DNA from: Panopea generosa
Lineage: Eukaryota > Mollusca > Bivalvia > Adapedonta > Hiatellidae
NCBI GenBank assembly: GCA_029582155.1
Contig: CM055908.1
Coordinates: 18,143,406 to 18,207,405, forward strand
Length of the DNA stretch: 64,000 nucleotides
Reading direction: 5' to 3'
Below are positions 11,612-61,627 of the stretch, piece by piece. Made by a program: the position numbers and the translations under genes. Below the pieces are notes generated by a model that ran no database searches, was not told where the DNA came from, and saw only the letters and a list, made by a program, of their open reading frames with translations. Each line of letters starts with the position of its first letter. Within the stretch, counting starts at the first letter, position 1.

Positions 11612-11875
11612 TTAACCCTTTACTTCATATAGACGTCTTTGGACACTTCTAATATAGATGCCTTTGGACACCTAATAATATTAGACGCCTTTGGACAACT
11701 CTAATATAGAAGGCTTTTGAATTATTGGGTGAAATATGTTTATATTAACTGACAGAGTGGAAAACTGTGTAGGAAGTGTTCAGATTGCTCGTATCTGAAC
11801 TCTTCCTGCACTGTTTTTTTAAGGCCTTCTGTGATTGGTGCGGGGAAAATGCGTATCTATGGAGTAAAGGGTTAA
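11612..11875. mobile_element. MITE family M1, inverted copy (copy C)
   Basis: TTAACCCTTTACTTCATATA at one end and TATGGAGTAAAGGGTTAA at the other. Reverse orientation to copy F: the minisatellite (GACGCCTTTGGACA units) comes first, then TTATATTAACTGACAGAGTG, then the palindrome around GATTGCTCG at about 11,785. Confidence 0.8.
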
Positions 11876-14364: not shown

Positions 14365-14517
14365 TCAAAACTTAAGGCTTTTATACTTTGGATGAAGTCT
14401 GTAAGGTGTTTTAAGTCTGACGCCAACAGTGGGAAGGTCTTCGTTGTAGTAGTAATACAAAACATTCTCTAGGACCTCATCCTTATAACCCTTCTCTGCC
14501 AGAAAGTATACCCCATC
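14365..14517 (-). CDS. SH3BP2: Exon 15: end of SH2 domain and stop
   Basis: Acceptor tctatttcag|GATGGGG. 153 nt, encoding DGVYFLAEKGYKDEVLENVL, YYYYNEDLPTVGVRLKTPYR and LHPKYKSLKF, then TGA at 14367-14365. VLENVLYYYYNEDL is the second SH2 helix; human has SVGSMVEHYHTHVL. Its acceptor and first ~27 nt are the seed of the adjoining 68-bp tandem array. Confidence 0.94.
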   Translation of the reverse strand, partial: DGVYFLAEKGYKDEVLENVLYYYYNEDLPTVGVRLKTPYRLHPKYKSLKF

Positions 14518-17500
14518 CTGAAATAGACACATAGCTGAGCATTATGATATTGATAAATCTTCTACAGAAGAAAGTATCCCCTGTCCTCAAACATACACAT
14601 AGCTGAGCATTATGATATTGATAAATCTTCTACCTAAGAAAGTATATTCCATCCTGAAACATACACATAGCTGAGCATTATGATATTGATAAATCTTGTA
14701 CAGAAGAAAGTATATCCCGTCCTGAAACATACACATAGCTGAGCATTATGATATTGATAAATCTTCTACAGAAGAAAGTATACACCGTCCTGAAACATAC
14801 ACATAGCTGAGCATTATGATATTGATGAATCTTCTCCAGAAGAAAGTATACCCCGTCCTGAAATATACACATAGCTGAGCATTATGATATTGACAAATCT
14901 TCTCCAGAAGAAAGTATACCCCGTCCTGAAACATACACATAGCTGAGCATTATGATATTGACAAATCTTCTCCAGAAGAAAGTATACCCCGTCCTGAAAT
15001 ATACAAATAGCTGAGCATTATGATATTGATTAATCTTCTCCAGAAGAAGTATACGCCGTCTAGATAAAGACACATATCTGAGCTTTGTCTCTCAACGCTG
15101 AATTAGGTGGGAAAGTTGTCAGTTATTTGTAGAGATGGGTGTGCTGGACTACTGGTTACCCTGAGAGGATCCCAGGAAACAGTGGCTATGTTAACTGATC
15201 TTGTTAACCCTCAATGGCATAAAAAATGAAACTAAATATTCAAACAATGAAAGCAAACATTTATACTTATACCTCATGAAGTAAAACTGGGTGTTTTTTT
15301 AGCTGCAAACATTATGTTAATACCTGAGAAACGTGCTAAATGGTGAATCAAAGTATTGTACAGATTGGTGATTATTTGCAAGCCCTTGGCATATAGCCCT
15401 TGTTATACGGTTACATGAAAGATAAGGTCATTATAGATTAATTATTATCATCCAAATTTTTATTAAAAAGGGGAAAAGCGGGGGGGCAGGATTTTATTTT
15501 GTATTTTTTTAACATTTTTGATGTTGTATATATATTTTTATGTTTTTTTTAGAAATTAAAAAGGGTCGGGCAGCATGAACATTAGGGGGTGGGCGGGGAT
15601 AATAATCTAGCAATTCATTGATTATGATCTAAAGGTGTTTTTTTTTTTATACCTTGGCAGACTGAGAAATTTCTTCCAAAAGTTCTCCTCAGATCAAAAC
15701 ACTGCCATCCCAAGTTTTTACATATTAAAGATTGCCATTATATGTATCTCTATGGTTACATGTAGGACTTACATGTCACCAAACATATACATGTATCAAT
15801 AGCAACAAAATGAAGCTTCTCACTCACCGAGTTCTGTATCCGATATTTCTTGGCCTGGTCAATAGCAAAAACAACCAATACCTGAAATTATGAGACAAAA
15901 TTCATTGCAAATCTATTTTATCACATAATTTACAGTATAGGAGTGTAATGAACCAATGACAAATTTTTAGCATCAACCTAGTGTAATACCACTTCAGATT
16001 CATCGTTCAGTGTTTTTAGAATAAAACGGCTCTCTGACAATGTAAAATGCAGAATTGCTGTCTGATTTCCTCGAATATATAAATGACGTTGAATTGCATG
16101 TTTTTTGATGGAAACCAATATGCACATTTTTTTCTCATTCTTTACAAAGGTGATGTGTTAAACAAATGGTAAATATACACATTTCCTGAGTGATAAAAAG
16201 AGTCTCACATTTGTGATCCATTATCATTAAATTTATGAAACAAGTTGGCAAATATATATTATGTGAGACACTTAATGAACACTCACGTAAGATCTTTTAT
16301 TTGATCTTAATATGTTTAAAGGTTAAGCAGGTCTGGTAAAGCTATCCTCTTTACAACTTCTTAATGGTTCTGCTTGGCTGGGTGACCTTAAGCTCTTAGT
16401 CAAGGTCACTACTTCTCACTGCATAGGTTTTAGTTCAAGTCCAGCTCAGTATAAAAAAGTAGAGACCAAATGGTCACATAGCAGAGACCTATAATCATTT
16501 GGCCATGGTTGCCTAGTAGAGACCAAAGATCATCTGGCCATGGTCACATAGCAGAGACCTATAATCATTTGGCCATGGTTGCCTAGTAGAGACCAAAGAT
16601 CATTTGGCCATAGTCACATAGTACAGACTTAAGATCATTTGGCCATGGTCACATAGCAGAGACCTATAATCATTTGGCCATGGTTGTCTAGTAAAGACCA
16701 AAGATCATTTGGTCATGGTCGCACAGTAGAGACTAAAGATCATTAGGCCATGGTCACATAGCAGAGACCTATAATCATTTCACCATGGTTACCTAGTAGA
16801 GACCAAAGATCATCTGGCCATGGTCACATAGCAGAGACCTATAATCATTTGGCCATGGTTGCCTAGTAGAGACCAAAGATCATTTGGTCATGGTCACATA
16901 GCAGAGACCTATAATCATTTGGCCATGGTTGCCTATTAGAGACCTAAGATCATTGGTCACATAGTAGAGACCTAAGTTCATTTGACCATGGTCGCATAGC
17001 AGAGACCTATAATCATTTGGCATAGCAGAGACCTATAATCATTTCACCATGGTTGCCTAGTAGAGACCAAAGATCATTTGGCCATGGTTACATAGCAGAG
17101 ACCTATAATCATTTGGCCATGGTTGCATAGTAGAGACCAAAGCTCATTTGGCCATGGTCACATAGCAGAGACCTATAATCATTTGGCCATGGTTGCCTAG
17201 TAGAGACCAAAGATCATTTGGTCATGGTCGAGCAGTAGAGACCAAAGATCATCTGGCCATGGTCACATAGCAGAGACCTATAATCATTTCACCATGGTCA
17301 CATAATAGAGACCTAAGTTCATTTGACCATGGTCACATAGTAAAGACCTAAGACAATTTTGGCCATAGTTTCATAATAAAGACAAGATCATTTGGCCATG
17401 GCTTTACCTCCACAAAGGCCATATATTGTGCCCCTGAGCATTGTATTTAAAGTAGAGAGCAGGGATCATTTGGCCATTGGTTTGACCTCTACACAGGTCA

Positions 17501-20500
17501 TATTTGTGTGCCTTAGCACTGTACATCATCAGAAAATACCTGAACTACTGGTTCTACCTAGAAAGACATCCAGTAACAATTATGGAAATTACATTGTAAC
17601 TATTATTCTACAATCAATGTAAAATGTACAATGGATACTTTCATAAGATAACAGTCAATATCTTTTTAGTTGGCAGAGGACAACAAAACATCAATTTAAT
17701 ACTCAAAAATTCATTCATGATCCTTTATCAATTTGGAACCAAATCAATATTAGAATAGAAATTTTGACTTACCCTTCCAGATCCCTTCATTTCTGGTCTG
17801 ACCAGGTATACCCCATCTTCTCCAATGGCTTGAATTATACTGGAATCATAATTATACAACATATCATAAAATACTGACAGTGTGGTCAATAGAGTGGTGG
17901 TCAGTCACACCAGAGATTGTGAGTTTGATCCCAAGCTTGACCTGTCCACTGATGAGCTGACCTGTGGGCAAAGATACAAGCAGAACCCTGTTCTTACAAT
18001 AAACATATCTTTGACTGGGTAGAATTTCCTTACCCACAAATGCAATATAATAATAGAATCACTTTACCAGTACCAGCCTTAAAACAAATTCAAATTGTAA
18101 TATATCTAGGTACAGAAAACAGTCATTATCAGTTACTCTATAATTATGTGGTACTGCATTCGTGATGTTTCATGTTGCTTTTAGCAGTCTCTCAGCCATG
18201 TCACTACAGTGTATGAATTTTAAGAGAAGATTACAGCTAGTTATTAAATTAAAGTAAAGCGATAACTTACTCGTGCGCCCTCTGTTTGGCATCTCTGTCA
18301 TTAAAATAAACTGACGCCCAATATTCCTCTGTGTCAATATTCTCAAGCTCTTCCTGTAACCATAACAACGGGTAACAATCAGGATCTTGTTTCACCAAGA
18401 TTTTCTTAAGTATTACTTAAATACTTTAAAAACATAACTCAATTAAATTTTTTAGACTGGTTATTAATTTATTATATAATCAATATCAATAAAACCATAT
18501 GTAGTTTTACTGGAACCAGTATGTAATCATGATCACCTGGCTGCTTTTCTCAAGTTTTTAAGTATTTGAGTATATACTCAGATGTATTGGTGAAACAAAA
18601 GCCATGTGACAATCAGGCAACAGCATAGTCTTAAAGTGAAAAAAATTTCTGATTAAATAATACAAACTTACAATTAAAGGAAAAACAGAAACACAAATCT
18701 GATATTTTGGCTCATAATGCCCAAGCTGTCAGCAAAGGTGAATACTTACTGCATATGAAATATTTCAAGTTTTAATTTACTACTTATTAATATACAACCT
18801 TCAAATGATTCACAAACTTATAACTTTTTTGCATTAGTTTGTTCAGTTTGGTAATAACATAGCAAATGAAGCTAAATGTTTTAAGCAATTGAGCCTCATA
18901 TAATTTACAAATGAAACTGAGAATATGATCATATGAAACTTTGCATGTGAGAATTATATGTGGTTCAGTTAGTACAGACCCTAAACCACTCAAGTACCCC
19001 ATAATTGCACTCCGTTTGCACTCAGTTTGCACTCCGTTTGCGCTCAGTTTGCGCTCCGTTTACGCTCTGTTCGCGTGCACTCGATTCAGTGCGGTTTATT
19101 TAATGCACTCACAAACGCAAGTATTCGCTCATGAGCGATGTTAACTATCTTTATTTTATACTCCTCTTAGCATTCACTTTGTTTGTTCAGCGTTCACTCA
19201 TCGTTCAGTCCGCTCAGTTCGGTTTCAGGCCCATAACCAACCTGTCAACTCTTAAAATGATTCCATATTGATTTTTTAATTGAAGCTGTTAAAAAATGGA
19301 GTAATAAATAAAATGTATCCATGGGATTTAGTCAAGGTAATTGAAATCATAATCCGAATGTTTGTCTACATATTGTGTCACCCGCAGGGCGAAAGGTTGT
19401 AAATTTCGGATAAACCATTACTAATAATAGGGAAGATTAATGGAAGAGTCTATATTTTGATATGTGACCAGTGGTCTGTGTGATCAAAGAATATCGCACG
19501 TTCTACCGACTTCTATTATCCAAACCGAAATGTGTTTTTGTCAGTAACTTCTTCGATATATCGTAAGCCGTTTTTTACAGGAAAGCAAAAAAATGTTATC
19601 CACAAAATTTACCAATACATCATCAACATAAACTAAATATATTATAATTGTTATTAATAATTCAATACCGCTTATACGTCTTTGGATTAACAGTAATCCA
19701 TTCATTTGATTAGTATAAGCAGTGACCTAACAATATCTGGATATGTCACTGGTTTTTGTTAATGTTCAAACTTAAATCAGCTTTATAATCAATAATAAAA
19801 TTATGCAATGCATGGGTGATGAAAAATTTATTATAATTTGTGGGATGGGATTTGACATATAAAATAATAAATGATTTTTGAAAAATAATAATCTTGTAGT
19901 GTTTTTTTCTAGATCTGGGTCTAAATGTGGCTTCACTAAACTTAAAAAAGATATTCTGATATTATAAGATTTAATAAATAGTTTCGTTATCATAATGTAT
20001 ATATATGTACCTGAAATTAACCTTTTTTCAGTGTTTCTCAAATTATTTTTTTACTGATAGTATGATTCATGTTAATATATTAATTAAACTACAAACTATA
20101 TTAAATTTGTTTGAAAATATACCCACTGTGCTATACCGCTACTTAATAATATATGACACGCAGCAATACAGACACCCGTGGTGTTGATTACGTTATGCAG
20201 CATGCCAGGGAGAGCCGTGTCAATTAAATTATACGCCAAAGCAGTGACTTACTGGTCTATTGCCCACAGAAGAACCCTGCAGATGATTTCATTTTTATTG
20301 TAATAAGTGCCAGACGGACAAATCTTAATTGAACCCGCAGTATGTGATTGAAAAGAAAAGATATAAGAAAAACTGCCAGCTAATTAACAACAAATCAAAC
20401 AAATTCATTTAAGAGATTGGTTATTCGAGGTTTCAGAACGATACTTTAGTATGTAAACCCATGATATTAATATCATTAAATTAACGAAACGAAAACCCCA

Positions 20501-26300: not shown

Positions 26301-29300
26301 CATTATGGTGGAAGTCAATAGGTTGGTTTAGGTTAATAGGTTGGTTAAGGAAGTCATTAGGTTGATTTAGGAAATTAAAAGGTTGGTTTAGATTATTATA
26401 TTGGTAAAGGAAGTTAATAGGTTGGTTTAGGAAGTTAATAGGTTGGTTTAGGTTAATAAGTTGGTTAAGGAAGTCAATAGGTTGGTTTAGGAAGTTAAAA
26501 GGTTGGTTTAGATTATTAGATTGGTTAAGAAAGTTAATAGGTTGGTTTAGGAAGTCAATAGGTTGAGTTAGGTTAATAGTTTGGTTGAGGAAGATAAAAG
26601 GTTGGTTTAGATAGTTAAAAGGTTGGTTTAGGAAGTTAAAAGGTTGGTTTAGATTATTAGATTGGTTTAGGAAGTCAATAGGTTGGTTATGGTTAAAAGG
26701 ATGAATAAGGAAGTTAAAAGCTTGATGTCAACATGAACATCACAAATACAAAGTTTAACATTGATGTCTTTAGTGTCAACAGCACCAATGCCAACAAGAA
26801 CATCAATATGAACAATATCTTCATCATCACATGAATAACAAAAAACAGACAAAAGGACAAATTAAACTTACTATTAGACGTTAGCAAGTTTGAGTGCTGG
26901 TCATGGCGACTTCTGGGTGGTGCTGATGGAGGTTCATTAACTATACGTGGAGGTTTGTGTGGTGGACTTTCTGGGCGACTGTTGACTGGAGGGGGAAACA
27001 CATCATCCTTATGTTCAAAAGGTAGTGGAAGAGCAGGTCGTTCGTCTATTGTTGGATTATGAATTAATGGCTCTTCAATTTCATCATCAGAATCTAGAAA
27101 AAAAGAAAAAACTGTATTTTAAATATTTCCTTTTGATGATCAAACATTTAGAGAGAGATTATTTATTAAATCAGGACAGTAGACTTGTATGTTCGTTTGT
27201 TAAAGAATCACTTTGATAACGTCAGGACCCCACACATATAATAGTATTACTAATACGTATAATTCTGTAATGTTATCAGAAAAGTAATACTTTTAAGGAT
27301 TCTCCATGACTGATCAGTCGAAGGCGCCAACGTCTAACAACCATTTACAACTCACCACTGATGTCATGGGTTCGAGCTGAGCTCGATCACAAAAGTTTAT
27401 GAAAAAAAGTTTGCAAATTACTTGCCAAAGGACAGTGGTTCTACTCAGATTTTTACTGAGGTCTACCTTAACCAATAAAACTGGATATGCCATATTTATC
27501 CTGTTATGTGTCGGAAGTCACATGTTAAATCTCATTATAAAGCACTTGACAAGATCGTTCTTTACAATAGTTTTGGTAGATGATCTATCTTTATAGCTTA
27601 ATGATACATGCATTAATACCTTTAATGGAGGAAATTTTTTTTATGCAATTTGGTTTACTGAATGAAGAATTCTATTCTATAAATACATCAAACTGCAGTT
27701 TCCATTTATAAATATATAAAAGTATTGACAAAAACTTCTTCCTTATTTTATTTGACCAAGTCCTTTTCTCAAATTCATTTGGCAATATCTTCTTCCTTAA
27801 TTGATTTGATCAAGTCTTTTTCCTTAATTGATTTGAAAAACAAGTTGGCTGCTTTTAAAAAAACATCCAATGTTTAGGTCTTATAAACGATGTGGCAATT
27901 GAAGTGAATGAATGTGTAAGTTTGGTTCCTTGTACAGAGTACTAAATACACGGGTGATACCAAATCCCAACAAGGTTCCAGTTGACACAGTGAATTCCCT
28001 GCTGCAGGTGTGCCTGATAGTAACTTTGATGTTTAAATGTACTGATCTCAATCATTATGTATTGCCATTTGCATATTTAGAAAAAAACTTACCTTATATA
28101 TTGTCTAACATACTTACTGCTATGTTCTATACAATTTACAACTGTGATAATAATATATTTTAAAATAATTCGTATCCATTTTTTAAATTAATTTGTGGAT
28201 ATATCATATTTAAAAACAACAGTTAAAATTTACTGTTTTTCCAAACTTGCGCATTCGGCAATATATCTGATTCTGACGACATGCTGAAATATGTCACACA
28301 GGTAAACTATCTTTATATTTCTGTTGTGTTGAATAAAATAAACAACTGAAGCTGTTAATTTTGTTATTATTTTCAATGTTATGGGTTCAGCATATTATAA
28401 TAATTGAGTAAATACATTGTTCTTTGAAAATTATTTACATTAACTCGGTAGGAATCTGTCAGAAACGACGATAAATTGTCAAAAAAGATAAGTTTCAAGA
28501 CCTCATTTACGCAAGGAATTTCGGAAAATTCCTTGATTTAAGGCATCATTTTTTTCCTGATTAAATATGCCAAGAACAATTCATAGTTATCTCAATCAAT
28601 AGCGGTTTATACATTCCCATGATGCACTGTTTAGAAAAACAATGGTGACTTTCATGTGGCGAATGCTGTGTTTTTTTAACACATGATCGTGACGTTTCAA
28701 TATGGCAGCGCCCAGAGTCAATTTCTTAACTCGCCCTTATAATTACTCATGCAACCCTAACCAAAAACTCTTCCTTTATTGATTTGAAAAATACTTCTTT
28801 CTCAATTGATTTGACAAAAACTTCTTCCTTAATTGATATGGCAAATATTTCTTGCTTAATTGATTTGAGAAAGACTTCTCGTCTTACATTAAGTAAAAAT
28901 ACTATTTCTAAAACAATTCACCTTCATTGGCCCGTTTGATGCTGCATTGTTTTGTGTAATCTGATGATGGTATGAACTTGGAAGCATCATCATAGATGTT
29001 AGATTCCACGTCCTTATAGAAATTACTGTCATCTGTTTTACTGGCATCTTGTTTCACTTTTGATATATATTGTTTACTGTATGAAAAGAATAAACTAATA
29101 TTGACAGTAGTTAATGGATTAAACCCTAAAAAACACATCGGAACAATTATGTTATATATATATATTTAGGCCATAATAAATAAATTGCTAGATTATCATT
29201 CCCACCTTCCGTCTAATTTTCATGCCACTCCAACCATTTTTATTTTCATAAAAAAAATAAATAAATAAAAAATAAGATCCTCCCACCCTCCTCATTTTTA

Positions 29301-32300: not shown

Positions 32301-35300
32301 ATATTTGTTTTGACAGGATGAGATTCTGCTGATATAAAATTCTCATGCTGTGACGATGGAACCATATATGGAGTAACGTATAAAATCTATGTCGTTAATC
32401 ATATAATTCAACTTCTTGAAAGTGATTGTTGTAAAAATATATAATGATGTATTTAGTGAACATAATTATTCAATGTGTTTGGTATGCAAGAAAAAGAACC
32501 ATTCATCATTCTCTTTCGGTTCGGATAGAAAATTCCATCCCTTGGGATAACTATTTTCACGTGAACAAGGCAGAGTCGCGTTTCTTCCAAGGCAGTTATC
32601 CCTTGGGACGTAAGTTTCTTTCGCAAAATCAAATCCATGTAAGATTCTTATAATCCACTCTTTCAAGTAACTTGCCTTCATTTCTTGCTCTGAGGAGGCA
32701 GAGAAGAGGTAAGTTTTAAACTCCTGATGTGAGTGGACAATCTTGAACGTCCACACGGCTTCATTACGTGGAATCTCGCTTGCTCTATAAACACTGAAAA
32801 ATAAAACAACGAAATATAATATAGCAAAACAATAAACAATTGTTCTTAGAATTTATGAGTGTTCTAACAAATGCAGGCTTAGCAAAAAATTCATGTGACT
32901 TTGAGACCAAGCCAGGCTCAAACCCACAATCTCAGGGTGAGATTTATGTAATCTCGAGACATAGCCACAGTCCACTTGCTCATAGAGACAACACCATACC
33001 TAAATTAACTGGGTTTAACACCATTTGCAACACATGGCAGGTTATATATAGCAAATCCAGTTGTATTGGTGGAGGAACCACAAAATGAATCTGAGTAGAA
33101 CCACCCTAGCTCCTTCTGCAAGTAACTGGCAAACTTTCTCACATAAAGTTTTTTTTGCTGAGCTGGGCTTAAATCCACAACCTCAGTGCCGAGAGGTTAG
33201 TTCCATATCTGTAATGTTATGTGATAGCTTTTATTCCTCTTAAAACACTCTTTAAGTATGATTTCCTGTGAAGTCATTAGTACATCGTTAAGAGATGTTT
33301 CATCTCAAGATGACACAAGTGTTGATTAAAGGAAATAATCAGTTTTCATGCAATAGGAGTCCGTCACTGCTTGGCTACATCAAAACTGCTGGTATGAGTG
33401 ATTTTCATGGAATATGAACTATTTTTTAGACAACATGCATGGGATAAAGTACTTTTTTCTTTATAAGTATCAAATGTATATTATAAATAGATGGGGAGAT
33501 ATGGAAAGAAAAAAACAACTGTCAATAATGAATAAAGTCTAAATATTATACTTATTTATTTACTACAGTCAAACTTATGCAAGTGGTCACCTCTATTAAG
33601 CAGACACTTGTCTTAAACTGTGAGCCACATTTGCTATTTTCAACTTCTACACTTTCAGAGTGAAATCACCTGTATTAAGCAACAACCTGTTTTAAAAGGC
33701 CATATTTGCTTCTTCCCTTGACTAGCTGCTTAAGACAGGTTTGACTGTACATTAATTTAAAAAAAAGTCTGTCCATAATAATTATTATTCAAAAATATGT
33801 AAACATTGTAAGGTATATTTGAGGGATATCCCACACTGACCCTCTTGCACTAGGTATGGGGAGAATACTGAAATTAATCATTTATTGCTCAAATAAAGGG
33901 AATCAATTCCATGGCAACCAAAATGAAAAACTTAAAATATTCTCCTCTAAAATCATTAACCATATTTTAGAATAATTTCAAGGTAATTTCCCTCCATGGG
34001 TGAACCTCTACAAAGATTGTTCCAGTTGCCTTGTTTCAAATTGCCAGGTGGTGCGACTAGCTTTCCGAATACATTGTATGTTTAAAGTTTTAATTTTGAA
34101 ATTCTTCTCTGAACTTGCTTCTTTTTAAAATAATTTTGAAAATATTCCTTAGGTCTCATTTTATCAAAAAAAGGCCGCCACAGTGGGCAGGGCTGTTTTC
34201 ACAGGAATACTATATGGGGGGAAAATGAAATATATATCTATATTGGGAATAATTTTAATTACCTTGAGATCTGGAGCATTGTTTATTTACACCAGTAGAG
34301 ACAGCAGCACTAATAAGCGACCAGCTGTTTCCCCAAAAGGGATAACATTGTGAAATTTCAAAAATCTTCTGATGAGTCAAATTTGTTCATATTTTGGTTA
34401 CATGAACCCCTTGTGGTTTCAACTGAGTTCACATAAGGGGGTTACTATCTATTGAGGTCCATATTAGAGACATTAATTTTCACATAAGAATAAATAAATA
34501 TAACTATATGGGAAACCAGTAAATTTTATATTTCTTATCTATTTTATATATAATTTTAATCAACTTGAGATCTGGGAATTGTTTAGTCAGTACAGTTGAG
34601 ACTGGGTCCTTTAAAGGAGATTTAACAACTGTAAGTATGAGCTAGAGCCTATAATGGATAAAGCTGAAAGTTCTTTTCAAGAACTGATCAGCCAAATTTG
34701 TCCATATGACAAAGGGCTGTCAGTTTGATTCAATGGGATTCATTGGCCTAGTATTAATTAGGCAACTTTAACTTTTATATGGGAATGTTTTGGAAAAAAA
34801 AAACTGAATAATTTCTTTTTTTTATTAATTATAATTATTAATTATCTTATAGAAATTGGAAAAGAAATGTCGGATGAAATTAAATGAACATTTTGGGCCT
34901 CCTGTAATTATTTTTTATCTAAAAATCTCTGCTACAACATGAAAAAGAAATGTTTTTACTACACTTTTTTGCACTATGGCCAATATTGAGAAAGATCTTT
35001 TTTATATACCATATGCTATGTTTGTTTATTCATGAAACACTACACGTGTCAGAACCATGATATTTCTATATGTCTCATATTAGTTATATTGCAATATTTG
35101 ACCAAAAGCATACTGAACATTAGAAAGACATCATTTCATAACAATTTATATGGCATCTAGCATTGCACATCAAAAACAATTGAAATATTTTTATGCGAAT
35201 TTTCAGTTAATCCAGTAAGTTAATTGTTTACTGTACAATATGTACCTTGTATCGGTAGCTTTTCTATATCACCTTGAATTGACCTTTAACCCCAAAATTC

Positions 35301-38300
35301 TATAAAACTAGCTTCATTATCCAGGACAGTAATATTAAAGTATCATCCTAACAGTAGTAAACCCTCTAAGACTATAGTTTATTTTTACAATAACATTAAT
35401 TAATCATATAATTTTTAATTACACAAAGCAACAATTACATACTTAATTACACAGACCAACAATCACATACTATAAATTTAACCTAACCTAGCTATTTCAA
35501 ATACAAGGAAATGACAGCTACAGATATGTTAAAGTGTTCTCTCTTGCACTGATATGCATATACACGTCTGCACAATGCATCCTTCCCTGACCCTGCATCA
35601 CATGGCGGATAAACAGCGATAAACAGCGTATTTATTTTAAAAAATGTAATTTCGTTTTAATGGGTCTTTTCACCATCATAATTATTTTGAGATAATTGTT
35701 GATAATTTCCTTAGTGACATATAACTATCAATAGCTGTGTCGATATACAGCTTATTAGCAAAATCAGCGTCACTCAGTACAAATCATATCCGTCCTTTAT
35801 AACAACATAATATACATATACATACAATACAAGGAAGCAACCATTACCACGTCAGCCTCTCAGCCCCACCAATCAAACTGAGTGGATACTGCCAAAGATA
35901 AACAATACAACTGCACTTGAACTCCCATTAAGAGCATCATCAATTCTATGAAATGGACATTTAGATTTGGTTGAAAACGCTGTATATCATGAACAGGAAG
36001 TTAACAATATGAATGAGATTACTGAACCAATTATCTGAAGTAATTAAGACACTTGTGAAACCAGACACATAGATCTGAATGTAGACATCATCAGAATAGC
36101 ACACTTTATAAACACGATGGCCAATAAAGTAATAAGTAATCTTATTGATCGCAATATGTAACTCTTAAAGGGATTATATTGGCAAGTAACACAAACACGC
36201 TGTTAATCAATACTTTTCCTGTATGCAGTGTGCACACACAAAATAATGCTTATGTATTGGCATATAACCTTTATTTACTTGAAAGTTATCAAATTAACAG
36301 TAATTGAATATTGGCCAAAACTTTAATACGTCCCGCAGTATTGCGCAATGTTTACATTGAACTCCGTAAACTTCCCGAACAAAGCCTCGAAAACGAGATC
36401 GAGAACTAGTCTTCACGATGTTATCAGATGATTGATTGGAAACCCGAAAGCGGTTCTTGAAAATAGCAAATGGAAACAAAAACAAAAACGTGGCTTCAGA
36501 AACCGATGTTTGTAATAAAGAGGTTATGCAATTAGACACTTTAGACGCGTATATCTCTAAGTTATAAGTGTATCTTCATGCTGGGCGTGTGTATTTAGGA
36601 CAGGGAATTGACGGTAATGATCCCTTTGATCAACTCGCTGATTTTTTTTTTTAACAAAAAGGCCGCGTAATGTATTGAATGTTTTTAACCATACCTGAGT
36701 AGAATTTAGAACAGGTTATCAATTAAAAACAATTTTGGCTTAGCACCAAACAATGATGAGACCAAGTCAATGAATTATAATTTTCAACTCAGAAAGACTG
36801 TCTGATCCTCAATTATTGCCACTTTCAATAATTTCTTGCTTTTTGTGTCAGTGTTTGATTTATAGTTATCTTATATTGTTTTAATTATAGTCTGTTCTAG
36901 GACAAGTTTATAACTGTCGAAGGGCCAACTAATATTATTGTCAAATGTACATTGTCAAATGTACATACTCCAGAATAAACACTTGTCACTGAGAAATGCC
37001 CCCACCACACTTTATGACTCTGTCAATTGATCTCAAATTAGTCCAAGTCTCATTTAAACATTTTCAAAATTGAATAAATGTCTCATTACCAGAAGAGTAT
37101 TTTATTGCATTTTACATGCACTTCAACATTCTAAATTTTTATCTCAAAGGCTCCAATAAACCCCGACCCCACTTTACAAAAAAAAAAAACACACACCAGA
37201 CGCAGATATATATGGTGCATAAGGAAATATATGTGCAGACAAAAGGATGGCTGCATCAGAAACTGCTATCATACTTACGCATTATAGCCATAAAGTGCGA
37301 ATTTTCCTGACAATGATTTGGCTTCCTCGTGTCTAAAATAGTACAGGCAGCCATCATGAAGCACAATGTACATCCGCGGCCCTGAAAATAGAGCAGAAGA
37401 AATCATTTTAAAAAAGTATATCTTTAAACTTTTTAATATTCAGTAAAGTTTTAAGTGCACCACTTCAAACAGTTTTTAAGGAATAAAATCGCAACTATTT
37501 ACAGCAGTGACTAATGTGCATAGAAGTGATTGAATATTTAGCGTCATAATGTTCTGGGCTAACAGACGATCAGTTCACCTAACCAGCGACTCTTTCCTGG
37601 GATCTTTGAAGGTTAACTAGTACTCGAGCACACCTTCCCACTTGAATCAGCTGTGAGAGACAAATGATAATAAGACACAATGTTGTATATCAATCATCAC
37701 ACGGAGACCGTGGCCTAGTGCTGATTCGAACTCGTGACCCCTGTATTGATAGTCAGACATGCTACTGCCTGAGCTAACTGGGCCTGGCTGAAAAGAAGTG
37801 AACAGCGATAAAAATCACAAAATGTCAACAACAAAAAAACGATTTGTTTTATGATAAATCTGGAGGATCCCAATCTCAACAAGAAAATCTAGAACTCAAC
37901 TTAACTGAACATTGATAAGTAAAAGATATTGAGAACTGAAGTCAGATTTAAATATTTACATCAGTGTTTGGAAAAGTAATTACAGGACTGCAACAGATGT
38001 GTATACAGGTGCAACCATGGGCATCTTGGATTAGACATTGTGGTGACAAAACATTGAAATAAGAATTTAAAATGCATGCACTCAATTGGCAAGTAAGCAA
38101 AAACGAGATTAAAGAGTTTATAATCCAGGAGATAATAGCAGAATAACTGTTGCAGTTAATCAAGATCATTTTACCAAACACCTTTCATACAGCTGTATAT
38201 AACAAATAACTGTGTACAACTGTCAGTCAGATCATCATACAGCTGTATATAACAAATAACTGTGTACCACTGTCAGTCAGATCATCATACAGCTGTATAT

Positions 38301-41300
38301 AACAAATAACTGTGTACCGCTGTCAGTCATATCATCATACAGCTGTATATAACAAATAACTGTGTACCGCTGTCAGTCAGATCATCATACAGCTGTATAT
38401 AACAAATAACTGTGTACCACTGTCAGACAGACCATCACACAGCTGTATATAACAAATAACTGTGTACCATTGTCAGACAGATCATCATACAGCTATATAT
38501 AACAAATAACTGTGTACCACTGTCGGTCAGATCATCATACAGCTGTATATAACAAATAACTGTGTACCACTGTCAGTCATATCATCATACAGCTATATAT
38601 AACAAATATCTGTGTACCGCTGTCAGTCAGATCATCATACAGCTATATATAACAAATAACTGTGTACCACTGTCAGACAGATCATCATACAGCTATATAT
38701 AACAAATAACTGTGTACAACTGTCAGTCAGATCATCATACAGCTATATATAACAACTAACTGTGTACAACTGTCAGACAGATCATCATACAGCTATATAT
38801 AACAAATAACTGTGTACCACTGTCAGTCAGATCACTGTGTACCACTGTCAGTCAGATCATCATACAGCTATATATAACAAATAACTGTGTACCACTGTCA
38901 GTCAGATCATCATACAGCTATATATAACAAATAACTGTGTACAACTGTCAGTCAGATCATCATATAGCTATATATAACAACTAACTGTGTACAACTGTCA
39001 GACAGATCATCATACAGCTATATATAACAAATGACTGTGTACCGCTGTCAGACAGATCATCATACAGCTATATTTAACAAATAACTGTGTACCGCTGTCA
39101 GTCAGATCATCATACAGCTATATATAACAAATAACTGTGTACAACTGTCAGTCAGATCATCATACAGCTATATATAACAAATAACTGTGTACAACTGTCA
39201 GTCAGATCATCATACAGCTATATATAACAAATAACTGTGTACCACTGTCAGTCAGATCATCATACAGCTATATATAACAAATAACTGTGTACCACTGTCA
39301 GTCAGATCATCATACAGCTGTATATAACAAATAACTGTGTACAACTGTCAGTCAGATCATCATACAGCTGTATATAACAAATAACTGTGTACCACTGTCA
39401 GTCAGATGCTCATACAGCTGTATATAACAAAAGACTGTGTACCACTGTCAGTCAGATCATCATACATATATATATATAACAAATAACTGTGTACCACTGT
39501 CAGTCAGATCATCATACAGCTATATATAACAAATAACTGTGTACAACTGTCAGTCAGATCATCATACAGCTATATATAACAAATAACTGTGTACCACTGT
39601 CAGTCAGATCATTATACAGCTGTATATAACAAACGACTGTGTACCACTGTCAGTCAGATCATCATACAGATATATATATAACAAATAACTGTGTACCACT
39701 GTCAGTCAGATCATCATACAGCTGTATATAACAAATGACTGTGTACCACCCTCAGTCAGATCATCATACTGCTGTATACAACAAATGACTGTCTACCACT
39801 GTCAGACAGATTATCATACAGCTGTATATAACAAATGACTGTGTACCACTGTCAGTCAGATCATCATACAGATGTATATAACAAATAACTGTGTACCACT
39901 TTCAGTCAGATCATCATACAGCTGTATATAACAAATAACTGTGTACCACTGTCAGACAGATCATCATACAGCTGTATATAACAAATAACTGTGTACCACT
40001 GTCAGTCAGATCATCATACAGCTATATATAACAAATAACTGTGTACCACTGTCAGTCAGATCATCATACAGCTGTATATAACAAATGACTGTGTACCACT
40101 GTCAGTCAGATCATCATACATATATATATATAACAAATAACTGTGTACCACTGTCAGTCAGATCATCATACAGCTATATATAACAAATAACTGTGTACAA
40201 CTGTCAGTCAGATCATCATACAGCTATATATAACAAATAACTGTGTACCACTGTCAGTCAGATCATTATACAGCTGTATATAACAAACGACTGTGTACCA
40301 CTGTCAGTCAGATCATCATACAGATATATATATAACAAATAACTGTGTACCACTGTCAGTCAGATCATCATACAGCTGTATATAACAAATGACTGTGTAC
40401 CACCCTCAGTCAGATCATCATACTGCTGTATACAACAAATGACTGTCTACCACTGTCAGACAGATTATCATACAGCTGTATATAACAAATGACTGTGTAC
40501 CACTGTCAGTCAGATCATCATACAGATGTATATAACAAATAACTATGTACCACTTTCAGTCAGATCATCATACAGCTGTATATAACAAATAACTGTGTAC
40601 CACTGTCAGACAGATCATCATACAGCTGTATATAACAAATAACTGTGTACCACTGTCAGTCAGATCATCATACAGCTATATATAACAAATAACTGTGTAC
40701 AACTGTCAGTCAGATCATCATACAGCTGTATATAACAAATGACTGTGTACCACTGTCAGACAGATCATCATACAGCTCATAATATTTAACAAATAACTGT
40801 GTACCACTGTCAGTCAGATCATCATACAGCTATATATAACAAATAACTGTGTACAACTGTCAGTCAGATCATCATACAGCTATATATAACAAATAACTGT
40901 GTACCACTGTCAGTCAGATCATCATACAGCTATATATAACAAATAACTGTGTACAACTGTCAGTCAGATCATCATACAGCTGTATATAACAAATGACTGT
41001 GTACCACTGTCAGACAGATCATCATACAGCTCATAATATTTAACAAATAACTGTGTACCACTGTCAGTCAGATCATCATACAGCTATATATAACAAATAA
41101 CTGTGTACCACTGTCAGTCAGATCATCATACAGCTGTATATAACAAATAACTGTGTACAACTGTCAGTCAGATCATCATACAGCTATATATAACAAATAA
41201 CTGTGTACCACTGTCAGTCAGATCATCATACAACTATATATAACAAATAACTGTGTACCACTGTCAGTCAGATCATCATACAGCTATATATAACAAATAA

Positions 41301-44300
41301 CTGTGTACAACTGTCAGTCAGATCATCATACAGCTGTATATAACAAATGACTGTGTACCACTGTCAGTCAGATCATCATACAGCTCATAATATTTAACAA
41401 ATAACTGTGTACCACTGTCAGTCAGATCATCATACAGCTATATATAACAAATAACTGTGTACCACTGTCAGTCAGATCATCATACAGCTGTATATAACAA
41501 ATGACTGTGTACCACTGTCAGACAGATCATCATACAGCTCATAATATTTAACAAATAACTGTGTACCACTGTCAGTCAGATCATCATACAGCTATATATA
41601 ACAAATAACTGTGTACCACTGTCAGTCAGATCATCATACAACTGTATATAACAAATAACGGTGTACCACTGTCAGTCAGATCATCATACAGATATATATA
41701 ACAAATAACTGTGTACAACTGTCAGTCAGATCATCATACAGCTATATATAACAAATAACTGTGTACCACTGTCAGTCAGATCATCATACAGATATATATA
41801 TAACAAATACCTGTGTTAAAAAATCTAAGCTACAAACATCAGAGAAACCACCTAATAACATGTGACCAGTGGAAAACATATTTCGAAAATCTATTTAAAT
41901 GTGATGATAATGAAAATGAACAATATTTTAATGCAGATTGAAATGATATTGAAATAACTGTAAACATTAATGATGCAGAGGATATAATCTTCAATTCTGA
42001 AATTACAGATGAAGAAATAACCAAATCCATTAAATCATTAAACATATCCAAGGCAGGGAGTCAAGATGGTTTACCACCGAGCATATTCATTTATGGTGTC
42101 CACATATTGTTGCCCATACTCAGCCGTTTATTTAATCGTATATTTATGAGTGGTCAGTTTCCAGAAGATTGGAGTAATGCTATAATCGTTCCGATATTAA
42201 AGAAGGGTGACATAAATACAGTTGAAAACTACCATGGTATATCCTTATTGGACATATTCGGTAAAATATACACTATTATAATCAATAGAAGGTTTACATT
42301 TTTTGCTAATATATTTGACAAGATATCTGAATCCCAAGCAGGGTTCAGGTCAGGGTATTCTACTGTTGATAATGCATATATACTGCAAGCAATAATATCA
42401 AAGTATCTTTCAAAAAAGACGTGGGAAACTGTACGTAGCATTCGTCGATTTCAAGACTGCTTTTGACACTGTTAGTAGAGATAAATTTTGGACAACATTA
42501 AAGAATATTGGTGTTAAAGGTAAACTATTTAAATCAATACAAGCCATGTATGCCTGTGTTCGTTCTCGAGTGAGGCTGAATGAGAAACTTAGCGACAGTT
42601 TCGAGTGTCCAGTTCGATCGAAGCAAGGATGTTTGGCCTCTCCTATCCTGTTTGACTATTTATTAACGATATTGTGGAACTTATTGAAAACAGTGATCTT
42701 AGAGGAATACAACTTTTTCCAGACACAGTAGAACTTTTTATTATTTGCAAACGATATAGCTTTGATTGCTGATACAGTCATTGGTTTACAGAGACAGCTT
42801 CATATTCTGGGTGACTATTATTATGATCATAGTTGTTTGAAAGTCAACACAGGTAAAACAAAATTCATGGTTTTCAAAAATGGTGGAAGGCTTTCAAATA
42901 ATGAAAAATGGTTAAACAAAGGGTATCCATTAGAAATAGTTAAGTGTTTTACATATGTAGGTGTATTGTTTTCCATGCAACTTTCCTTTAATAAGATGGC
43001 AGAAGATTTAGCTTTAAAGGGAATGCATGTGTTGGTGTCAGTTCTGTCAAGTTTATATAAATATGGTCAGATACCAAAAAATGTGTTTTTTAAATTATAT
43101 GATACAAAAGTTGTACCAATTGTGCTGTATGGATGTGAAATTTGGGGATTTGCTGAATGCCAACATTCCGAAATAGTCCAACAATATGCTTGTAAACGAT
43201 ATATATGATTAAATACAATGTACTAAAGCTTCTAATGCAGCAGTGTTAGGTGATTGTGGCAGATATCTGTTATGGATAGAATCAACTACGAGATGTATTG
43301 AATACTGGGTTAAGATTATAAATATGCCAGAATTTCGATACGTAAAAAAATGTTATGAATATGTTGCAAGTACTAGACAAAAGTGGAAGAACTAACTGGG
43401 TCAGCTGGGGAATTCACTGGTTTTATCTTCTTATATAAGATCGTTAGCTGTTTTGCAAGTATTAAAGTCAAAGGGCAATCAGAAAAAATTAGTTGCCACT
43501 TTTTTTGAATTCTTTGTCTGTGCAACCAAATCCCAAAATTAACAGAAGTGCTGAAAGGTACCCAAAGACACTTGGAATATGAATAGAGAGCAATGGGAAA
43601 TGTAGAGTTATGACTCATTCTTGAATAATGACAAAATAATTCCCTTTCTGTACTTAAGTTTTTCTTGTCCAAACATATTTTCAAAAGCATGGACGTAAAT
43701 GTATGTTTTAGTTATATGAATGTAATATTGTTTAATTTTAAATTAATGAAAATAAATTTTAACTAGAAATGTGTCTGCTGACATGAATGAATTACTTCTT
43801 TATAAGAATTCTTCAATTGATGAAATATTGCTTTCGGAGAAAAACATACATGCAGAATGAAGAGAGAAGAAAAAAAAAACTATTTAGAACTTTACGAAAT
43901 GTTAAATAAAAAGAATAAATGTTATAATCCATTATTACTTTAAAAATGATATCTATGTCATAAAATGTAATTTGTAAGGTATATAGAGGGACGACCCACC
44001 GCGACCCTCATACACCTATTACGGGGTGATTAAATGGACCACCTTTTGGTGGTTGAAATAAAAAAAAAAAATTCTTCAATTGATCACTAAGTTTCACAAA
44101 CCCACAGTTAACCAACCATCATATTAAACACCAGTCAAAAAATCACCGGGGCAACGCGAGCAAATCTGTATTTAATGTTGATAGCAAGCTTGTGAACTTA
44201 TAAAATAGCAATCTAATATGTACACATAAACTTACATAGCAAACTTGTACAGACAATCTAATAAAATACATATTGTACTTACATCGTAAAATGAGACTGG

Positions 44301-54926: not shown

Positions 54927-55212
54927 AGCCGGGCCCGATTAGCTCAGTCGGTTACGCATCTTACTATCAATCCAGGGGTCGTGAGTTCGAATTCCCGCAC
55001 GGCAACAGTCTCCGTGATAATTGATTTACGACATTGTGTCTCATCATGTTTTGTCTCTCACCACTGATTCAAGTGGGAAAGTTATCAGTTACTTGCAGAG
55101 ATGGGGTGTGCTCGAGTACTGATTAATCCCAGGAAACAGTGGTTAGGTTAACTGATCGTCTGTTAGCCCTCGATGGCATAAAAATGACGCTAAATATTCA
55201 ATCAATCAATCA
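54927..55212 (+). mobile_element. tRNA-derived SINE, family A, well preserved
   Basis: GGGCCCGATTAGCTCAGTCG (A box), GTCGTGAGTTCGAATTCCC (B box), body, and CAATCAATCAAT tail. Its B box is where the 1.7-kb duplication begins. Confidence 0.9.
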
Positions 55213-55496
55213 TCGTTTATAACTATGCAATTGAGAGCTAACAGACTTTCAGTTAACCTGACAACTCTTTCCTTGGATCCTCAAATATTAACCAGTACTC
55301 GAGCACTACCATCTCTGCAAGTAAACGATAACTTTCCTAGCTGAATCGTGGTGAGAATTTACAAATGACAATAAGACGTAATATGAGATACCAATCACCA
55401 AGGAGACTGGTCAGGCGGGGATTACAGCTCACAAACCCTAGATTGTTAGTTAGGCACGCTACCGACTGAGCTATTTTAACCTGGACCCAGCATGAA
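55213..55496 (-). mobile_element. SINE family A, inverted, tail-to-tail with its neighbour
   Basis: Minus strand: AAAATAGCTCAGTCGGTAGC, GTGAGCTGTAATCCCCGCC, GTGCTCGAGTACTGGTTAAT, GTCAGGTTAACTGAAAGTCT. Older than the plus-strand copy by divergence (inferred). Confidence 0.8.
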
Positions 55497-55684
55497 CCTG
55501 AATTTTAACTTTGCCGCAAGACCCTTGAAGGACTATTGGAGTTTACATCCTTGTAGATTAGTGACAGGATACATGTATGTATTTATGACATCCAGTTTTA
55601 TTTGTGATGAAAGGGATGAGATGAATCAATGATCCTGCATCACAATAGTTTAATTCAAATTATTTTAAACTTGTTATTTTACGT

Positions 55685-56030
55685 TGATTGTGAAACTCAC
55701 GAAAGTCTTCCTTGGCAGAACCTCAGTACTAAGCATATGTGGGAAAAGTGTTTTGATCATGGACACCAAACATAGCCGTGGCATATAGGATGAATCCTGT
55801 TGAACCCACAACAATCCCAGTACTGCAATCAATTTCATTTCTACACGTAACCAATATAACCTCGCTTATTAGAGTTTGTGGACAAAGTGCGGCTCAAACC
55901 CCCAACCTCAGCAGTCAGGAAGAGTTATACCATATTCCCCAGAATGAAGTGACTACCGTTTATTTGTGTGCTTGTATAAAAAGAGCAATTATACCGTCAG
56001 TGGAGGCAGAAAACAGTTGAACACTTGGCT
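55685..56030. repeat. SINE family B and D pieces inside duplication unit 1 (repeated at about 57,390-57,715)
   Basis: GAAAGTCTTCCTTGGCAGAA, TAAGCATATGTGGGAAAAGT and CACCAAACATAGCCGTGGCA match family B. GCTCAAACCCCCAACCTCAG resembles the family D B box. The short open frame over this stretch occurs in both units and is not gene-like. Confidence 0.6.
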
Positions 56031-58719
56031 ATGGAGAACCCAAAACATTCCTTTGATAACATGAGTTTAAAATAAAAACAATTAAATTGATTTTTAAAAG
56101 CAAGTTACTAATCATATTATAATTCATGGAATAAATATAAGACAAATCATAAACATATAATGATTTGACAATTTAACTCACAATAATATCCAGTTATTTT
56201 ATATTCTATACTTTTTTAAAATTATGAAAAATAATATAAGAACAAGCCTACTCTAATACATGTATATAGCTTTATAATAATCCAGTAAATAACACACTGT
56301 TGAAATAATAAGCCTTATCAACTGAAATACTTTTTTTAACTATTCCAAAACTGTTCTCAGCAGCTTAACAAATAACAATATAATATATATTTATACACAC
56401 TCCAAGTGTTAGTTGTAAGTGTTTTGTAACCTATAAACATAATCCATATATGGGCACTCCTTCAAATCCTTCGTAACCCACTTCTAGGAATTGAAAGATA
56501 ACACAATTATATTCCATGTTAAATTGGGTCGTCAGTAGTTACACAATACCGTTTCCTGTTTTACAAAAGTCATAAATGATTATCAACATCTGTAACAAAC
56601 GGGCCTGAGCACCCAGTGACGAAACAAAATTATTAATACTACCAACTAGACCACAAACATTACTTGTGTTCAGCATACCATCAAACAAATTCCCGCCCGG
56701 CAACAGTCTCCGTGATGATTGATATACGACATTTGTCTCATTATCTTTCGTCTCTCACCACTGATTCAAGTGGGAAAGTTATCAGTTACTTGTGGAGATG
56801 GGGTGTGCTCGAGTACTGGTTAATCCCAGGAAACAGTGGTTAGGTTAACTGATCGTCTGTTAGCCCTCGATGGCATAAAAATGATGCTAAATATTTAATC
56901 AATCAATCATCGTTTATAATTATGCAATTGAGAGCTAACAGACTATCAGTTAACCTGACAACTCTTTCCTTGGATCCTCGAATATTAACCAGTACTCGAG
57001 CACTACCATCTCTGCAAGTAAATGATAACTTTCCTAGCTGAATCGTGGTGAGAATTTACAAATGACAATAAGACGTAATATGAGATATCAATCACTAAGG
57101 AGACTGGTCAGGCGAGGATTACAGCTCACGAACCCTAGATTGTTAGTTAGGCACGCTACCGACTGAGCTATTTTAACCTGGACCCGGCATGAACCTGAAT
57201 TTTAACTTTGCCGCAAGACCCTTGAAGGACTATTAGGGTTTACATCCTTGTAGATTAGTGACAGGATACATGTATGTATTTATGACATCCAGTTTTATTT
57301 GTGATGAAAGGGAAGAGATGAATCAATGATCCTGCATCACAATAGTTTAATTCAAATTATTTTAAACTTGTTATTTTACGTTGATTGTGAAACTCACGAA
57401 AGTCTTCCTTGGCAGAACCTCAGTACTAAGCATATGTGGGAAAAGTGTTTTGATCATGGACACCAAACATAGCCGTGGCATATAGGATGAATCCTGTTGA
57501 ACCCACAACAATCCCAGTACTGCAATCAAGTTTCATTTCTACACGTAACCAATATAACCTCGCTTATTAGAGTTTGTGGACAAAGTGTGGCTCAAACCCC
57601 TAACCTCAGCAGTCAGGAAGAGTTATACCATATTCCCCAGAATGAAGTGACTCCCGTTTATTTGTGTGCTTGTATAAAAAGAGCAATTATACCGTCAGTG
57701 GAGGGAGAAAACAGTTGAACACTTGGTTATGGAGAACCCAAAACATTCCTTTGATAACATGAAATCAGTTTAAAATAAAAACAATTAAATTGATTTTTAA
57801 AAGCAAGTTACTAATCATATCATAATTCATGGAATAAATATAAGACAAATCATAAACATACAATGACAATTAAACTCACAATAATATCCAGTTATTTTAT
57901 ATTCTATACTTCTTTAAAATTATGAAAAATAATATAAGAACAAGCCTACTCTAATACATGTATATAGCTTTATGATAATCCAGCAAATAACACACTGTTG
58001 AAATAATAAGCCTTATCTACTGAAATACTTTTTTTAACTATTCCAAAACTGTTCTCAGCAGCTTAACAAATAACAATATAATATATATTTATACACACTC
58101 CAAGTGTTAGTTGTAAGTGTTTTGTAACCTATAAACATAATCCATATATGGGCACTCCTTCAAATCCTTAGTAACCCACTTCTAGGAATTGAAAGATAAC
58201 ACAATTATATTCCATGTTAAATTGGGTCGTCAGTAGTTACACAATACCAGTTTCCTGTTTTACAAAAGTCATAAATGACTATCAACATATGTAACAAACG
58301 GGCCGAGCACCCAGTGACGAAACAAAATTAATAATACTACCAACTAGACCACAAACATTACTTGTGTTCAGCATACCACCAAACAATGGACATATCGGCA
58401 GTGTGGATACAAAAGTTAAATGAGGTGTGTAACTGCCGTTCATGAAGATCTTATATTCGTATCCTGCGTCACAGCTGACTGGGTATAGCTACTACTGTAA
58501 TAGATAATATCTAGAAATCAAGATAATGAATTCATGAATGAATTAGGTTTTTATGACAAACCACTGCATGCACCCTCTCCTATTGGAAAGATAGAAAATA
58601 AAAGCACAGTATTTCTTGGTGGTGAAAAAAGTATGAGAATGGATCTGAGTTGACAGCTAGAGTTCAGCCATATTATGGAGAAAAAACTAAAGTTGTAGTA
58701 TCATCATTGGCTACCCATG

Positions 58720-60074: not shown

Positions 60075-60192
60075 TGCAGTTAATATAAACATAATTCACT
60101 TAGTAATTCAAAAGTCTTTCTATATTAGTCTGGTGTCCAAAGGCGTCTATATTAGAGGTGCCCAAAGGCGTGTTTATGAAGTAATGGGTTAA
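60075..60192. mobile_element. MITE family M1, right half (copy G)
   Basis: Starts at CAGTTAATATAAACATAATTC, carries two GTCCAAAGGCGTCTATATTAG units and ends TATGAAGTAATGGGTTAA. The palindrome half is missing. Confidence 0.7.
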
Positions 60193-61309: not shown

Positions 61310-61627
61310 TAACCCTTTACTCCATAGATACATATTTTCCCACACCAATCACAGAATGCCTTCGAAAACAGTGCAGGAAGAGTTCAGATTGCTCGTAACG
61401 AGCAAACTGAACACTTCCTGCAATGTTTTCAACTCTGTCAGTTAATATAAATATAATTCAACCAATAATTCAAAAGCCTTCAATATTAGGTGTCCAAGGG
61501 CGTCTATATTAGGTGTCCAAAGGCGTCTATATTAGAGGTGTCCAAAGGCGCCTATATTTAATAGAGGTATCCAAAGGCGCCTATATTAGTGGTGTCCAAA
61601 GGCGCCTATATGAATGTAAAGGGTTAA
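61310..61627. mobile_element. MITE family M1, full copy with long internal minisatellite (copy H)
   Basis: AACCCTTTACTCCATAGATA to TATGAATGTAAAGGGTTAA. Central palindrome at about 61,364-61,430 (GAAAACAGTGCAGGAAG, CAGATTGCTCGTAACGAGCA). Five internal units, some with a longer spacer (TTAGAGGTGTCCAAAGGCGCC). Confidence 0.83.

Follow-up and report, generated by a model that had tools for sequence, protein, structure and literature searches.

In an SH2-domain gene, the last coding exon is preceded by a tandem array whose 68-bp unit spans the last intron–exon boundary, placing eight decoy 3′ splice sites upstream of the true one. The gene lies on the minus strand of a 64,000-nucleotide stretch of DNA, referred to here as the window. 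The anatomy of the array, its homology to the exon, its phasing and the stop codons that it contains can be read directly from the DNA. We consider it probable that the array is an ordinary minisatellite that was born on a splice junction, and that its decoys are largely ignored, perhaps while slowing splicing. Such minisatellite-like tandem duplications of an intron–exon boundary were named “mirages” in amphioxus genes (PMC3087553, PMC3902484, both consulted in part).

TRF delimits the array at 14501–15083, with a period of 68, 8.6 copies, 91% matches, 0% indels and a score of 935, and local alignment carries the repeat beyond this end to 15086. The array adjoins the last coding exon, whose first base on the minus strand is 14517, and seven copy starts follow at exact 68-bp steps from that base (14585, 14653, 14721, 14789, 14857, 14925 and 14993). 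Copies 1–7 differ from the consensus at one to seven positions. In each unit, a branch-point-like motif and a weak pyrimidine tract lead up to an AG, after which come about 27–36 nt that resemble the start of the exon. Local alignment revealed an eighth decoy acceptor, a degenerate one (TTTATCTAG/ACGG, first base 15059). An earlier note on this DNA had read the unit as the end of the last intron, its AG and the exon start, which is borne out by the array, its phasing and its homology to the exon. Its seven copies at exact 68-bp spacing also stand, whereas its total of seven decoys becomes eight with the degenerate one. All eight decoy AGs precede the true AG in transcript order, as it had stated.

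Table. Coordinates of the array, its copies and the SH2 exons within the window (acceptor scores from a rough matrix)
Feature	Coordinates	Strand	Remarks
68-bp tandem array over the last intron–exon boundary	14501..15086	-	TRF and local alignment
Copy 1	14518..14585	-	Acceptor before 14585 is TTTGAG, score -2.32; the copy's own end is the true acceptor
Copy 2	14586..14653	-	Decoy acceptor TTTCAG before 14653, score 3.76
Copy 3	14654..14721	-	Decoy acceptor before 14721, score 3.76
Copy 4	14722..14789	-	Decoy acceptor before 14789, score 3.76
Copy 5	14790..14857	-	Decoy acceptor before 14857, score 3.48
Copy 6	14858..14925	-	Decoy acceptor before 14925, score 3.76
Copy 7	14926..14993	-	Decoy acceptor before 14993, score 4.46
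Copy 8, degenerate, slightly shorter	14994..15059	-	Decoy acceptor TTTATCTAG before 15059, score -0.33
Last coding exon (labelled exon 15), 50 codons and stop	14365..14517	-	Frame DGVYFLAEK...KSLKF; stop codon 14367-14365; in-frame part of SH2 match
Preceding exon (labelled exon 14), VLVVFAIDQAKKYRIQNS	15828..15881	-	Phase 0 at both ends; donor TCG/GTGAGT
SH2 exon with DGVYLVR motif	17773..17839	-	Part of SH2 match
Exon coding for the N-terminal part of the SH2 domain	18271..18353	-	Part of SH2 match

Four exons (18353–18271, 17839–17773, 15881–15828 and 14517 to the stop) join in frame into a C-terminal stretch of 118 residues, with the last exon beginning in phase 0, like the end of the exon before it. 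The joined protein matches the Pfam SH2 family (E = 1.9e-05), its 25.1 bits exceeding the cut-off of 21, which supports the earlier placement of the array just ahead of the final coding exon in an SH2 gene. The exon numbers 14 and 15 are labels taken from the earlier note, the exons of the gene being only partly located. Among the 29 PDB matches listed, the structures nearest to the SH2 domain are RASA1 (E = 9.5e-06) and PLCG2 (E = 3e-04); the SH2 domain of SH3BP2 (2cr4, E = 0.023) is the ninth match listed, after chains of RASA1, PLCG2 and PTPN6. An identity with SLP-76 or BLNK was considered and set aside, as neither is among those 29 matches. SH3BP2 itself combines PH, proline-rich and SH2 regions. 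Upstream of the SH2 exons, the minus-strand ORF 32469–32852 is PH-like in Pfam (E = 6.5e-04, with 20.6 bits falling below the cut-off of 25.1), and the PDB gave no match to its PH-like piece at E of 1 or less; a proline-rich ORF lies at 26717–27118. The PH-like and proline-rich ORFs hint at a PH/proline-rich/SH2 adaptor of the SH3BP2 type, a lead only. Two different SH2 exons also have 12 bases in common (GATGGGGTATAC, at 17806–17817 and 14506–14517), which code for DGVY in each and may reflect either coincidence or internal copying.

The consensus unit is identical to the start of the exon at 22 of the first 27 nt and at 27 of the first 36, and copies 1–7 individually match the first 27 nt at 19–22 positions. 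Elsewhere in the window, on both strands, the best match to these 27 nt reaches 17/27; the final 40 nt of the intron are matched elsewhere at no more than 25/40. Homology and phasing are therefore beyond chance. The earlier note had staked its reading on this homology, and alignment found it. The inclusion of intron end and exon start within one tandem unit, with 68-bp phasing and 22/27 identity, is the first of three features by which we recognize a mirage here. An exact 35-base pattern of the unit gave 0 matches in viral contigs.

The second feature is the retention of splice-signal dinucleotides. The AG is kept in all eight decoys, as CAG in six, GAG in one and TAG in one (TATCTAG, at 15059). 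Scored with rough matrices of consensus values that were not trained on the host organism, the true acceptor at 14517 reaches 4.50 and six of the eight decoys 3.48–4.46, within about 1 bit of it; on the same rough scale, the three acceptors belonging to the other SH2 exons have scores of 4.30, 0.74 and 5.44. A branch-point-like TCATAAT lies 25 nt upstream of the true site and of seven of the eight decoys. Most decoys thus have the full form of a 3′ splice site, and on this rough scale strength does not single out the true site. The earlier claim that the pyrimidine–AG sites are nearly unchanged needs correction at 14585, where the sequence is TTTGAG. This decoy, which adjoins the true site, is the one with the CAG to GAG change, a single case that may reflect either chance or selection against the nearest competitor.

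The resemblance of most decoys to the true site, in apparent strength and in the distance of the branch-point-like motif, favors an alternative in which they are used, constitutively or in a regulated manner, to produce proteins truncated within the SH2 domain; so does their position, nearer the donor than the true site. All eight decoy frames reach a stop inside the array, as the earlier note had foreseen: after 7 residues from 14585, 14653 and 14789, 9 from 15059, 44 from 14721, and 59 from 14857, 14925 and 14993. These products, 7 to 59 residues long and without a common tail, argue against use as isoforms. The peptide DGVYFLLEK, previously taken to be kept from the decoys in general, is kept only from the three decoys with 59 residues. 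In three of the eight copies, the exon-like part has an in-phase TAG after 7 codons, and the exon-like parts are therefore not kept as coding. Whichever decoy was used, the SH2 domain would be lost beyond the contribution of the preceding exon. One decoy protein still scores as a partial SH2, matching the Pfam family over most of the domain (23.3 bits), which again favors use.

The array contains no credible donor: the best of the 34 GTs scored within it with the rough matrix reaches -0.26, compared with 3.52, 5.04 and 5.46 for the donors of three minus-strand exons. Cassette use of single units, each taking up the 57 in-frame nt between a decoy and a GTATGT, was rejected on this score and on the early in-phase stop in three of eight copies. 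Masking of the decoys by RNA structure was also rejected, as the 621-nt fold has a z of 0.28 and 11 of 20 shuffles were as stable or more.

The third feature of a mirage, a homogenized interior with diverged ends, is visible in pairwise comparison of copies 1–7. Copies 5–7 show one to three differences among themselves and copies 1 and 2 differ at ten positions, while the distal copy is degenerate. Variation is also distributed unevenly along the unit. Across copies 1–7, 5 of 41 intron-derived columns are variable versus 9 of 27 exon-derived columns (Fisher P = 0.063); when the boundary is set at 36, the counts are 3/32 and 11/36 (P = 0.039), and the minimum numbers of changes are 5 and 10 (binomial P = 0.032). 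The lower variation of the intron-derived part is marginal. It would be unexpected if the splice signals were wholly idle; it thus counts against a plain neutral account of the array and is the sole hint of use. To this marginal degree it favors the production of isoforms, and likewise a second alternative, in which several 3′ sites are occupied together and delay excision of the last intron to an extent that scales with copy number.

The window is AT-rich, with a G+C content of 28–39% per 2-kb bin, and 36 arrays of period at least 10, in a list merged by hand from TRF output, cover 20.6% of it. A strong duplicate within 3 kb was found for 39 of 150 random window positions and for 1 of 16 edges of eight exons, namely the 14517 acceptor; the edge count is rough, with the edges of 29125–28922 and 27095–26900 guessed and some others one base off. 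At the random rate, at least one of the 16 edges would be expected on an array with P = 0.99, and one or fewer with P = 0.054. Mirages at other exon edges were rejected on this count, the single case among the sixteen edges being, if anything, few. With arrays covering so much of the window and so many random positions duplicated, no special cause is required for one to lie on an exon edge here.

Other repeats in the window were recorded as well. An array with a 50-bp unit in about 72 copies (38185–41816, 3.6 kb) adjoins ORFs at 41942–43208 that resemble a broken reverse transcriptase, the first of which matches RVT_1 in Pfam below the cut-off (E = 0.015). At about 55000–58500, minus-strand ORFs recur every ~1698 bp (58159/56461 and 57563/55865), which suggests that some 1.7 kb has been directly duplicated. 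A family of 23–27-bp minisatellites occupies five places in both orientations (11–132, 11627–11717, 46527–46632, 60119–60171 and 61488–61622), as if dispersed. Two arrays about 1 kb apart, at 27731–27836 and 28762–28903, have a nearly identical 27-bp unit.

Under the explanation that we favor, a minisatellite with largely ignored decoys, about 68 bp over the last intron–exon boundary would have been tandemly duplicated and then expanded. Splicing would proceed mainly to 14517, because the true site alone leads into the whole last exon. Acceptor strength, as judged with the rough matrix, appears not to explain the neglect of the decoys, which counts against this explanation; exon context, such as enhancers and terminal-exon definition, would instead select the true site. 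The decoys would be mostly silent, and may bind U2AF or U2 as competitors and so slow the removal of the intron. An occasional splice to a decoy would truncate the protein inside the SH2 domain and leave the stop codon in the last exon. Stops in a last exon escape exon-junction-dependent decay, and such transcripts would therefore not be exposed to it. Selection by exon context is our inference, and PMC5389562 gives no proof of it, since exon pieces of 14, 55 or 205 nt beside the upstream site left the outcome unchanged; effects of exon length on site choice are reported elsewhere, according to the same source.

Use of the decoys to make truncated isoforms is unlikely in light of what has been described for related structures. 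Reported mirages splice normally: Adh3 data and globin RT-PCR suggest that they do not interfere with splicing (PMC3087553, in part), and the same is described for the Adh and TnC mirages (PMC3902484, in part). The first option of the earlier note, a host that ignores the decoys, thus agrees with the amphioxus reports. Duplicated β-globin 3′ sites were spliced very inefficiently and to the distal site only (PMC5389562, in part). We regard as more doubtful still a broader proposal, that mirages recur across animals through minisatellite birth and that the nine 3′ sites here form a length-variable splicing brake holding several U2AF/U2 complexes. A slowing of last-intron removal that scales with copy number, taken as the main effect of the array, is improbable to a slightly greater degree. 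Two U2AF or two U2 can be bound at once to duplicated 3′ sites, and this concurrent occupancy is reported to slow splicing (PMC5389562, in part). That the animal has a shorter repeat or none is highly improbable: tandem arrays are easily misassembled, but copies 1–7 are all mutually distinct (1–10 differences), unlike a simple false duplication.

With its nine near-identical 3′ splice sites, this intron amounts to a natural competition experiment. Six decoys are close to the true site and differ from it chiefly in that the remainder of the exon does not follow them, which would make the share of exon context in acceptor choice readable. Variation in copy number among individuals is plausible for such a repeat and, if present, would let the locus show whether stacked acceptors slow splicing.

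The closest known structures are the amphioxus mirages, described in the globin genes BflGb6 and BflGb9, in Adh3 and in TnC, together with PGBD5 repeats (PMC3087553, PMC3902484, in part). The novelty that the earlier note implied is reduced by this precedent. As in BflGb6, the unit here consists of the 3′ end of an intron and the 5′ part of an exon; many units keep their splice dinucleotides, and end copies escape homogenization, as in the interior turnover with diverged ends of BflGb6 (PMC3087553, in part). In contrast to the amphioxus cases, the host here is an SH2-domain gene. The unit measures 68 bp, compared with 150–160 bp in BflGb6 and 10–72 bp in Adh3, and there are eight decoys, compared with BflGb6 haplotypes of 6 and 3 units (PMC3087553, in part). 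Among the literature matches listed, which cover few subscription journals, mirages under that name occur in the two amphioxus papers only, and the present array may extend them beyond cephalochordates. The G+C content of the window, 28–39% per 2-kb bin, suggests a host other than amphioxus, whose genome has a G+C content of about 41%.

The duplicated β-globin 3′ splice-site design is reportedly that of Reed and Maniatis from 1986, and PMC5389562 put it to the test again. Minisatellites at exon–intron boundaries, able to alter gene structure, are also described in human segmental-duplication genes, where internal tandem repeats may form new introns, whereas the array here lacks a credible donor (PMC2812944, in part). 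The β-globin constructs resemble the array in their tandem 3′ sites, the upstream one having a piece of exon only; they are artificial, carry two sites and were studied in nuclear extract, while here nine sites occur naturally (PMC5389562, in part).
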